From: Candidatus Gastranaerophilales bacterium
GTDB lineage: Bacteria; Cyanobacteriota; Vampirovibrionia; Gastranaerophilales; Gastranaerophilaceae
Assembly (NCBI GenBank): GCA_944323045.1
Contig: CALUQX010000006.1
Location: forward strand, 1 to 64,000
Length of the DNA: 64,000 bases
Direction of reading: 5' to 3'
Shown here: positions 46,143 to 51,832 of the stretch, piece by piece
Layout of the letters: each line of letters opens with the position of its first letter
How positions within the stretch are numbered: position 1 is the first letter of the stretch
Program-made: the position numbers and the translations under genes
Notes under the pieces: generated by a model
Told to the model about the DNA's origin: nothing
What the model saw: only the letters and a program-made list of their open reading frames with translations
Database searches by the model: none

Positions 46143-46898
46143 GGTGCGTCAAAACGACGCACCCTACGAGTTCTATCGCTTTGCACACCAAATATATAAA
46201 TATGCAATGATATATGAATGTCAAATTACAAACGATTCTATAATATTATTAGTTCACTACATGTAGGGTGCGTCGTTTCGACGCACCGAAATATTTGTAC
46301 CCAAATTGTTTGACGTAGCAATTTTTCTCATGATATAACTTAATTATGCCTAATTATAGAAGATATTATTTACAATATGATTATGTATTTATAACAGTTG
46401 TTACATATAATAGACAATATATTTTATTAAAAAATATCAACTTATTCAAACAATCATTAAAAAGGGCAATTGACCGATACGGGTTTGAAATTTATGCAAT
46501 TGTTGTGTTAGACGACCATTTTCATATTATATTGCAGTTGAATGAATATAGAAATTATTCAAATATTATAGGTAGTATTAAAAAATATTTTTCACACAAT
46601 TTTGAATCTCAAATTGAAACAACGACAAGTCGAATTAAACGCAAAGAAAGAAACATTTGGCAAAGAAGATTTTATGATCATATAATACGAGATGAAGAAG
46701 ATTTACATAAGCATATGGATTATATACATTATAATCCGATAAAACATAATTATGTTAAGCGGGCAAAAGATTGGCAATATTCATCATTTTATAAGTTTGT
46801 GAAATTAAAATTTTATGATGAAGATTGGTGTGATTTTAGAAACATTAAAGATTTAGAATTTGAATAATAATGCGGTGCGTCGAAACGACGCACCCTAC
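46143..46898. mobile_element. RAYT transposase with flanking REP palindromes
   Basis: Three copies of a palindrome GGTGCGTC-(4)-GACGCACC plus a CTAC tail (46143-46167, 46263-46287 inverted, 46874-46898) bracket a Y1-type transposase gene. This is the layout of a REP/RAYT system, in which a single-copy tyrosine transposase spreads REP hairpins. Degenerate relatives occur at 50650-50708 and 51807-51832. Confidence 0.8.
46346..46867 (+). CDS. REP-associated tyrosine transposase (Y1_Tnp, IS200-like)
   Basis: 173 residues. HUH motif in VLDDHFHIILQL, with conserved RRYYLQYDYVFITVVTYNR start and WQRRFYDHIIRDEEDLHKH-MDYIHYNPIKH at the end, which holds the catalytic Tyr of the RAYT/TnpA-REP family. 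Intact reading frame. It is bracketed by REP-type palindromes, which it probably acts on. Very AT-rich, unlike the neighbouring gene, consistent with transfer. Confidence 0.9.
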   Translation: MPNYRRYYLQYDYVFITVVTYNRQYILLKNINLFKQSLKRAIDRYGFEIYAIVVLDDHFHIILQLNEYRNYSNIIGSIKKYFSHNFESQIETTTSRIKRKERNIWQRRFYDHIIRDEEDLHKHMDYIHYNPIKHNYVKRAKDWQYSSFYKFVKLKFYDEDWCDFRNIKDLEFE

Positions 46899-50094: not shown

Positions 50095-50440
50095 TCATTG
50101 CGAGCGAATGCGAAGGTAAAAAATGAGTGGATATGTCTATATTCTTTTTAATAAACGAAATGGAACTCTCTATGTAGGTGTTACCTCTAATTTACTTCAA
50201 AGAGTCTATCAGCACAAGAGTAAAATGATCGGAGGATTTACTAAAAAATATAATATTGACAAATTAGGATATTATGAAATTTTTGATGATATAGAACAGG
50301 CAATAATACGAGAGAAGAAATTAAAAGGCGCCTCAAGACGGAAAAAATTAGATTTGATAGAAATAAATAATCCCGAATGGCTTGATTTGTATTATGAAAT
50401 AATGGAATAAGCTGGATTGCTTCGCGTTCGCTCGCAATGA
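50095..50440. mobile_element. GIY-YIG gene flanked by 21-bp inverted repeats
   Basis: TCATTGCGAGCGAATGCGAAG (50095-50115, split here as TCATTGCGAGCG and AATGCGAAG) is matched by its reverse complement at 50420-50440 with one mismatch. Between them lies only a GIY-YIG endonuclease gene whose ribosome site begins right after the left repeat. The unit looks like a small mobile or repeat-associated element. Confidence 0.6.
50123..50410 (+). CDS. GIY-YIG nuclease domain protein (YhbQ-like)
   Basis: 95 residues, a lone GIY-YIG domain: YVYILFNKRNGTLYVGVTSN with the two motif tyrosines, LLQRVYQHK and a C-terminal KKLKGASRRKKLDLIE helix. Related to UPF0213/YhbQ proteins and to homing or repeat-associated nucleases. 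GAAGGT precedes the ATG. Its flanking inverted repeats suggest it acts on, or moves with, those sequences. Confidence 0.88.
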   Translation: MSGYVYILFNKRNGTLYVGVTSNLLQRVYQHKSKMIGGFTKKYNIDKLGYYEIFDDIEQAIIREKKLKGASRRKKLDLIEINNPEWLDLYYEIME

Positions 50441-50453
50441 CGTGCGCGCAATC

Positions 50454-50490
50454 ATGTTTCATATTTTGTCAAGTGTTTGGCGAATATATT
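50454..50490 (+). repeat. Left direct repeat with promoter
   Basis: 37 bases starting ATGTTTCATATTTTGTCAAG, repeated with one inserted G at 50725-50762. Followed by a TATAAT at about 50499-50504, so it brings a promoter to the 50511-50708 element. Confidence 0.65.
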
Positions 50491-50530
50491 ATTTATTGTA
50501 TAATAACAATGTAGGGCAAGCACACAGCTT

Positions 50531-50573
50531 CTCCGTCACACGCAATTTACGTAGAAATTGGACGGAAAGGAGG
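50531..50573 (+). promoter_or_regulatory. Hairpin that can occlude the ribosome site of the tiny ORF
   Basis: CCGTC pairs with GACGG and CAATTT with AAATTG around a 6-base loop; the outer CTCC (50531-50534) faces GGAG of AAAGGAGG. Folding would hide the Shine-Dalgarno, as in type I toxin mRNAs. Confidence 0.5.
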
Positions 50574-50581
50574 TTGTCACT

Positions 50582-50653
50582 ATGGTTGATAAAATAATAA
50601 TGCTATTACTTGCATTTTCACTAACAGTAATAGCACTAAAATTAAAACCGTAG
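50582..50653 (+). CDS. Tiny hydrophobic membrane peptide (23 aa), type I toxin-like
   Basis: MVDKIIMLLLAFSLTVIALK plus LKP: one transmembrane helix with basic ends, the size and shape of type I toxin or holin-like peptides. AAGGAGG is 7-8 bases before the ATG. It lies in the 198-bp element, downstream of a promoter, with a hairpin over its ribosome site. No antisense RNA gene can be proven by eye. The stop is part of the GTAGGG repeat. Confidence 0.5.
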   Translation: MVDKIIMLLLAFSLTVIALKLKP

Positions 50654-50724
50654 GGTGCGTAGCAAGCCGTTAAGATAATTGGACAAAGTCTTAATGGCTT
50701 CGCCCTACATTTATATTATTTACG

Positions 50725-50762
50725 ATGTTTCATATTTTGTCAAGTGTTTGGCGGAATATATT
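50725..50762 (+). repeat. Right direct repeat with thrB promoter
   Basis: Second copy of the 37-bp repeat (one extra G in GGCGG), immediately followed by TTATAATATA, the likely -10 of thrB. The promoter region was therefore duplicated around the 198-bp element. Confidence 0.65.
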
Positions 50763-50813
50763 TTATAAAATTTTTTTCTGTTATAATATATATGGAAAGT
50801 AAAGAGGAAAAAG

Positions 50814-51776
50814 ATGAAAGTAAGCGTGAAAGTGCCGGCAACATCGGCGAATTTAGGACCCGGATTTGATTGTATGGGGCTTGCGATACCTATATATAAT
50901 ACAATTACTATTGAAGAAACCGTTTTGCCGGGAACAGGGATTGAGATTAACGTATTGGCTGCGGAAAGTTCTGAGAATGAATTGTTGATGGAACATATTC
51001 CAATGGACGAAAACAGTATTGTATACAAGGCTGTAGAACTTTTGTATAATTCTATCGGACAGACACCGAGTGAACTGAAAATAACTATACAATCTGAAAT
51101 TCCTATAGCCAGAGGACTTGGCAGCAGCGCATCAGTAATCGTAGGGGGTCTTATTGCAGCTAACGAACTTCTTGGCAGACCCGCTGATGAAACGGCACTA
51201 TTATCAATTGCGACAGAAGTTGAAGGACATCCGGATAATGTAACTCCGGCGATTGTCGGCGGACTTGTTATCACATCTCAAGAAGATGACGGCAGTATTG
51301 TTTACAGAAAACTGGATTGGCCTGAAGAGTGGCATTTGACTGTTTGTGTGCCTGATTATGAACTCGCTACAGATATTTCGCGTTCTGTTCTGCCTAAGGA
51401 AGTGCCTATGGCTGACGCTGTTTTCAATGCAAAACGCATGGGGATGTTTGTCCATGCCGTTCACACAAAAGATATTGAACTTATGAAACTTGCTTTAAAA
51501 GACAGATTACATCAGCCTTATCGGACAAAACTTGTACCGGGGCTTGAAAAAATTGTTGCAAATTTAAAGCACGATGAAAATGTAATAGGTACTGTTTTGA
51601 GCGGTGCCGGACCTTCTATTTTAGTAGTTTCAAACGGTAAAGGACTGGATAAAATCAAGTCAATTGTGCGAGATACGTGGGCTGATTTGAATGTAAAAGC
51701 ACAAATTTTTGATACAGTAATTGAAAAACAAGGCGCAACAATTGTCTCAAATGTGAACGGAGAACAGACGGACTAG
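50814..51776 (+). CDS. thrB: Homoserine kinase
   Basis: 320 residues of the GHMP family, normal length. KVPATSANLGPGFDCMG is the homoserine kinase N-terminal signature and PIARGLGSSASVIVGGL the ATP phosphate loop; SGAGPSILVVSNG closes the site. It phosphorylates L-homoserine in threonine synthesis. AGAGGA precedes the ATG. No thrC or hom gene adjoins it; it is transcribed alone from the duplicated promoter. Confidence 0.96.
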   Translation: MKVSVKVPATSANLGPGFDCMGLAIPIYNTITIEETVLPGTGIEINVLAAESSENELLMEHIPMDENSIVYKAVELLYNSIGQTPSELKITIQSEIPIARGLGSSASVIVGGLIAANELLGRPADETALLSIATEVEGHPDNVTPAIVGGLVITSQEDDGSIVYRKLDWPEEWHLTVCVPDYELATDISRSVLPKEVPMADAVFNAKRMGMFVHAVHTKDIELMKLALKDRLHQPYRTKLVPGLEKIVANLKHDENVIGTVLSGAGPSILVVSNGKGLDKIKSIVRDTWADLNVKAQIFDTVIEKQGATIVSNVNGEQTD

Positions 51777-51806: not shown

Positions 51807-51832
51807 TGTGCGTCGAAACAACGGCACCCTAC
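51807..51832 (+). repeat. Degenerate REP palindrome
   Basis: TGTGCGTCGAAACAACGGCA followed by CCCTAC, clearly a decayed copy of the RAYT-associated REP at 46874-46898. Confidence 0.65.

Follow-up and report, generated by a model that had tools for sequence, protein, structure and literature searches.

Small toxic peptides encoded in repeated DNA units, some of them in tandem, are known from the Ldr/Rdl and Ibs/Sib loci of Escherichia coli. The par locus of pAD1 (RNA I-Fst/RNA II) has convergent promoters, a leader stem that hides the Shine–Dalgarno (SD) sequence and a helix in which the 5' end is engaged. It also has oppositely transcribed direct repeats, different from locus to locus, through which the two RNAs make a second contact close to the ribosome site (PMC7472228). 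The aapA/IsoA loci of Helicobacter show a closed full-length mRNA with 5'–3' pairing, a hidden SD sequence and a cis-encoded antisense RNA (PMC6733600). In the Cyanobacteriota, msoT1/msoA1 of Microcystis aeruginosa was put forward in 2025 as a candidate type I pair, and the abstract of that study names Proteobacteria, Firmicutes and Tenericutes as the only groups from which type I pairs had been known before (PMC12390103). Here we describe a 198-bp unit in a 64,000-nucleotide stretch of Candidatus Gastranaerophilales bacterium (contig CALUQX010000006.1, positions 1 to 64,000), hereafter the window, and the family of modules to which it belongs. Judged from its sequence, the module is probably a type I toxin–antitoxin locus of a new family; its architecture, conservation and co-variation are established by the sequence data.

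Judged by the arrangement of its parts, the mechanistically nearest known system is par of pAD1. Both have convergent promoters, an SD-hiding leader stem, a helix involving the 5' end and direct repeats common to the toxin leader and the antisense gene. By comparison, the module's antitoxin terminator lies inside the toxin open reading frame (ORF) and mainly on the minus strand, whereas the par terminator is shared by both RNAs, and the predicted antisense RNA has ~118 nt rather than ~40 nt. In addition, the Pfam matches of the module peptides include no Fst/Ldr model. The module shares a tiny peptide, a predicted closed mRNA, a hidden SD sequence and a cis antisense RNA with aapA/IsoA and with hok/Sok; it differs in having no RNA-family or peptide-family match, and its 5'–3' pairing is supported by swap tests in one of three sequence groups. 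It is likewise distinct from Ldr/Rdl and Ibs/Sib, since its peptides have no match to those Pfam models and it belongs to another phylum. The msoT1/msoA1 pair resembles it as a type I candidate from the wider Cyanobacteriota/Melainabacteria group, but the candidates of that study have 39–81 residues and come from one genome, whereas the module family has peptides of 21–32 residues in many copies. A literature search by title and abstract found no type I pairs in Melainabacteria or Gastranaerophilales, and the module family, a large one carried by gut-dwelling relatives of the cyanobacteria, is apparently undescribed.

Architecture of the module in the window

The unit occupies positions 50511–50708, bounded by GTAGGG at 50511 and GCCCTAC at 50702–50708. 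A predicted sense promoter on the plus strand is formed by TTGGCG (–35, 50477–50482) and TATAAT (–10, 50499–50504; 10/12 consensus positions, spacer 16), from which transcription would start near 50511. The leader hairpin (50524–50577, –18.6 kcal/mol) covers the conserved SD sequence AAGGAGG (50567–50573) and carries in its loop the pentanucleotide CGTAG (50550–50554), a predicted contact site for the antisense RNA that co-varies in the family; in this copy the repeat has a length of 5 nt only. The ORF (50582–50653, ATG at 50582, TAG at 50651–50653) encodes a hydrophobic peptide of 23 residues, MVDKIIMLLLAFSLTVIALKLKP, the predicted toxin. A 3' hairpin, GTAGGGTGCG...GCCCTAC (50650–50708), follows and contains the second CGTAG copy (50658–50662), which lies in the antisense start region. 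On the minus strand, a promoter TTGACA-17-AATAAT (50743–50715; 11/12 consensus positions) points back into the unit, and a putative intrinsic terminator lies inside the toxin ORF (50590–50637; stem 50602–50634), with a U-tract complementary to AAAATAATAAT. The antisense RNA predicted from this promoter and terminator, the candidate antitoxin, would cover 50708 back to 50590, and the opposite strand of the 3' hairpin would form its 5' hairpin.

Folding predictions for this copy are in line with such an arrangement. The full-length unit folds at –64.6 kcal/mol (z = –6.0, 0/200 shuffles), with 5' UAGGGC paired to 3' GCCCUA, so that the GTAGGG start (50511–50516) meets the CCCTAC at the right end; the SD sequence lies within a stem and the start codon is paired with the end of the ORF. 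The right-half palindrome (z = –5.5, 0/200 shuffles) and the predicted antisense stretch 50590–50708 (z = –3.8, 0/200 shuffles) also fold more stably than shuffled sequences, while the leader hairpin is weak on its own (z = –2.0; 9 of 200 shuffles fold equally well). An earlier note made from the letters of this DNA had described the unit, the hydrophobic ORF with its AAGGAGG site, a hairpin able to hide that site and the palindromic right half, and we recovered each of these. Its suggestion of a type I toxin gene is well supported by the conserved antisense promoter and terminator, which it had not reported.

We propose that sense transcription from ~50511 would give an mRNA that folds closed, its 5' end pairing with its 3' end, and that the leader hairpin would hide the ribosome site of this toxin mRNA. 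The 23-residue peptide, a predicted single-pass membrane peptide, would harm the producing cell if freely translated. The strong promoter at the right end would make the ~118-nt antisense RNA. This RNA would be complementary to the 3' hairpin and to the greater part of the ORF, and the codons of the toxin themselves would form the terminator at which it ends. The short direct repeat may let it also contact the leader loop close to the ribosome site, a feature shared with par of pAD1. If the antisense RNA is unstable, its loss would then release the toxin. Transcription, toxicity, repression and a role in addiction or stress are what this mechanism would lead one to expect.

A family of modules in Gastranaerophilales

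Of 59 genomes searched with the 331-bp region around the unit, 16 gave matches, the own genome being one of them; all 16 belong to the same family, and a second place was matched in the own genome; the order of parts is the same at the matched loci and the peptides are different. More modules were collected with the conserved right end, the minus-strand pattern TTGACA-N17-AATAAT, which matched 13 viral stretches and at least 114 genome stretches, most of those listed coming from Candidatus Gastranaerophilales or Melainabacteria (Gastranaerophilales being an order of Melainabacteria). At least 150 unique matches were examined (loci L001–L158), so the family counts that follow are lower bounds. 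At least 97 of 150 unique matches listed have an ORF of 21–30 codons that passed our filter (hydrophobic fraction ≥0.5, SD score ≥5 of 7), with an SD-like site and a start codon 118–155 nt ahead of the promoter pattern. The pattern alone is not specific, as 53 of these 150 have no accepted ORF; some of the latter resemble pilin-gene promoters, and others, for example L018, L046, L107 and L122, seem to be modules that the filter passed over. At least four modules occur in the own genome, namely the window copy, two on contig 29 and one on contig 19.

Dropping near-identical modules left 93 non-redundant ones among the matches listed, which were divided by a simple rule of our own into S1 (n = 35), S2 (n = 31) and S3 (n = 27). 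S1, to which the window copy belongs, has peptides of the form M-DKIIMLLLAF..VIALKL, S2 peptides are MDNFNLSLLLIFLILYILKNGSYLNR-like and S3 is mixed. A strongly hydrophobic 17-residue stretch is present in 92 of the 93, in a set already filtered for hydrophobic ORFs. The shared order is a sense promoter, an SD-hiding leader hairpin, a membrane peptide with the antisense terminator in its codons, a 3' hairpin and an inward antisense promoter; the SD sequence, start codon, hydrophobic frame, both promoters and terminator are kept at near-fixed spacing. When up to 3 of its 12 positions may differ, the sense promoter is found in 73 of 92 modules, as compared with 279 of 1551 control windows.

Because the antisense promoter pattern had served to collect the modules, its conservation among them is circular. 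For an independent test, we modelled only the leader, so that the search was blind to the promoter. This model matches 42 of 117 genomes of the family in Gastranaerophilales at E ≤ 0.001; a class-wide sample gave matches in 28 of 146 genomes, every one of them from this family. It returned 30 loci, of which four were incomplete and were dropped; in the 26 long enough to read, the promoter is free of mismatches in 22 and has at most two in 23. Among 34 modules from the leader-model search loci that lay outside the model's building set, 26 have the exact promoter at the expected place and 29 have it with at most two mismatches, as compared with 2 and 16, respectively, of 777 control windows. These leader-model sets are less filtered for hydrophobic ORFs than the 93 modules, and they added a further peptide form, 32 residues long, whose end reads EKVPxLExLELFLKS or similar. 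When one mismatch is allowed, 133 of 191 family genomes contain the promoter pattern, as compared with 0 for all reversed-pattern controls; this count includes other promoters.

A tandem array in genome G003 (L010/L066) has seven units, with seven promoter matches on its contig, and lies in a prophage-like locus; one side has genes that follow baseplate-like genes, and the other has small ORFs and a 425-aa ORF. Why seven modules should be found in one prophage is a question that such arrays pose. Other modules adjoin unrelated genes. Rfam searches of the window and of eight module loci gave no family but tRNA at the gathering score, and at E up to 10 five chance-level matches fell on the unit. 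Searching phage and plasmid collections with the window module by blastn gave no match.

Peptide frame, terminator codons and direct repeats

Conservation of the ORF among copies, which the earlier note had made a test of its proposal, is borne out. Substitutions at codon positions 1/2/3 number 1043/526/954 in S1, 2668/1338/3825 in S2 and 478/359/622 in S3, position 2 being the least variable in each group, and dN/dS is 0.67, 0.30 and 0.49, respectively. These values support a coding frame in S2 and S3; S1 is equivocal, since the hairpin presumably constrains third positions there. The peptides have no detectable homology to named families, as judged from Pfam/NCBIfam searches of 37 members at E ≤ 1, with no Fst/Ldr model among the matches, and from PHROGs, where matches were weak and only to nameless families (best E = 0.016).

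The antisense terminator appears to be written into this frame. A minus-strand hairpin followed by a U-rich tract lies within the ORF region of 90 of the 93 modules, with mean energies of –17.7 (S1), –16.9 (S2) and –15.1 kcal/mol (S3). Random synonymous recoding with family codons reduces these means to –3.9, –6.2 and –4.4, and the real value is reached by 0 of 420, 24 of 360 and 2 of 324 recodings, respectively. The terminator is thus mostly lost on recoding, indicating that codon choice maintains it, with the constant A-rich codons AATAATAAT/AATAATAAA serving as its predicted U-tract. The plus strand is weaker, with 4, 10 and 11 modules (S1, S2 and S3) at or below –5 kcal/mol, 25 of 93 in all, so that the par/Fst trait of a bidirectional terminator common to both RNAs is not seen here.

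The strongest co-variation between alignment columns is one of identity, not complementarity, and links the leader loop with the stretch after the stop codon. Their longest common word averages 7.29 nt within modules, as compared with 5.54 nt when partners are swapped within the group (0/5000 permutations), and the two repeats, in the leader loop and at the antisense start, change together from module to module. Since the stretch after the stop codon enters the antisense RNA as its complement, this RNA can pair with the leader loop. In all three groups, the leader loop pairs more favorably with its own antisense RNA than with swapped ones (0/300 each). Swap tests also support pairing of SD and anti-SD in S1 and S3, co-variation of the 3'-hairpin arms in S1 and S3 (0/300 each), with unit ends that vary between modules, and the 5'–3' pairing in S1 (0/300). 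Our analysis suggests, with somewhat better than even confidence, that the modules make up a large self-standing type I class confined to one Gastranaerophilales family, in which the antitoxin terminator in the toxin codons would dictate the peptide (IIM/IIK, then palindromic codons) and prophages would gather members in tandem arrays. With roughly 100 natural variants at hand, the family lends itself to the study of how the same DNA can encode both a peptide and an antisense RNA.

Several observations weigh against a type I toxin–antitoxin locus of this design. In S2, the swap tests for SD with anti-SD and for the 3'-hairpin arms fail. The test for 5'–3' pairing fails in two groups, S3, where 281 of 300 swaps did as well, and S2, where 57 of 300 did. 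Global co-variation does not single out the helices, with 4, 10 and 3 canonical pairs among the top 45, and the consensus leader structure retained only 4 pairs. The own antisense RNA is the best partner in only 9 of 32 modules from six genomes, which leaves a private pairing code of each antisense RNA within its genome unsupported. In S1, the window copy's group, one shifted frame gives a similar substitution contrast, and with a dN/dS of 0.67 the codon test alone is no proof of coding there. Furthermore, a generic terminator scan with a G+C requirement finds no terminator at the window copy, and G002 carries a degenerate copy at the same place, with an altered SD sequence and no start codon at the expected position.

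Alternative readings and history of the locus

The module could instead encode a non-toxic membrane protein under antisense control, such as one that assists phage lysis or signals in the membrane. The toxicity in our proposal is a presumed property, an array adjoins phage baseplate-like genes, and the same modules recur in G074 and G126, two genomes of one genus, all of which would suit such a role. By contrast, the toxic par and aapA peptides are described as being controlled by just this combination of a sequestered SD sequence, an mRNA that is closed and an antisense RNA (PMC7472228 and PMC6733600), and we regard a harmless peptide as unlikely.

The unit lies between a GIY-YIG ORF (50123–50410) and thrB (50814–51776), whose product has GHMP kinase domains. 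The earlier note took it for a miniature inverted-repeat transposable element (MITE)-like insertion between duplicated thrB promoters. The flanking repeats (50454–50482 and 50725–50753) are indeed present, with 29/29 identical positions, and reach ~37/38 bp once one indel is allowed, but they do not duplicate the thrB promoter: the right end of the left repeat supplies the –35 of the sense promoter, the right repeat overlaps the minus-strand antisense promoter, and the thrB –10 TATAAT at 50782 falls outside the repeat and is kept in relatives without it. As a non-autonomous mobile element (MITE-like or of the repetitive extragenic palindromic (REP) type), the unit would have an incidental ORF and repeats serving as transposase sites; its terminal inverted repeat, direct repeats, copies at many loci and empty sites in the genus fit this. 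However, the MITE reading is unsupported because the predicted toxin RNA can be closed by the terminal repeats and because the antisense promoter extends into the right direct repeat, and the search for homologous elements returned a family of modules rather than a lone MITE. The near-fixed spacing from SD sequence to antisense terminator and the ends that vary while the 3'-hairpin arms covary also argue against it, and by eye no target-site duplication can be defined against the sites in G001–G005. We therefore consider a mobile element quite improbable. An integron cassette array was considered informally, and no attC-like ends were seen by eye.

The position directly upstream of thrB would suit a cis-regulator of this gene, for example a leader-peptide attenuator, yet this is the least credible of the readings. 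G001, G003, G004 and G005 have thrB without the unit, the first two carrying the GIY-YIG element alone before it and the last two neither; these are the empty sites for which the earlier note had asked to search, and thrB attenuation is rejected because of them. Family members also occur in the prophage-like array and beside unrelated genes. Returning to the toxin–antitoxin module, the left repeat occupies the position that the antisense promoter of the preceding unit has in arrays (L010/L066), and it is probably, on this positional evidence, what remains of the antisense promoter of a tandem copy since lost.

The GIY-YIG ORF (PF01541) is flanked by a 16-bp inverted repeat (window 50100–50435). 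G000, G001 and G003 carry it ahead of thrB and G002, G004 and G005 lack it, a distribution in which it behaves like a small mobile unit. The window also has four REP-like palindromes of the type GTAGGGTGCGTCGAAACGACGCACC (46143–46167, 46263–46287, 46874–46898 and 51808–51832), which have GTAGGGTGC in common with the right half of the module. At L036, L142 and L153, a promoter of the antisense type follows directly after a hairpin, downstream of ORFs that by eye look Abi-like; these are perhaps other antisense-controlled genes. Many family genomes in several genera have a near-constant minus-strand promoter ACATTATTTATTGTACA..TTTGTCAA, usually one per genome (for example L164–L166, L178 and L179). 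At L057, L069, L104, L109, L110, L114 and L150, a promoter of the antisense type lies ahead of genes that by eye are type IV pilin-like. About ten consecutive G (C on the coding strand) occur in their start region, possibly a phase-variable or an assembly feature.
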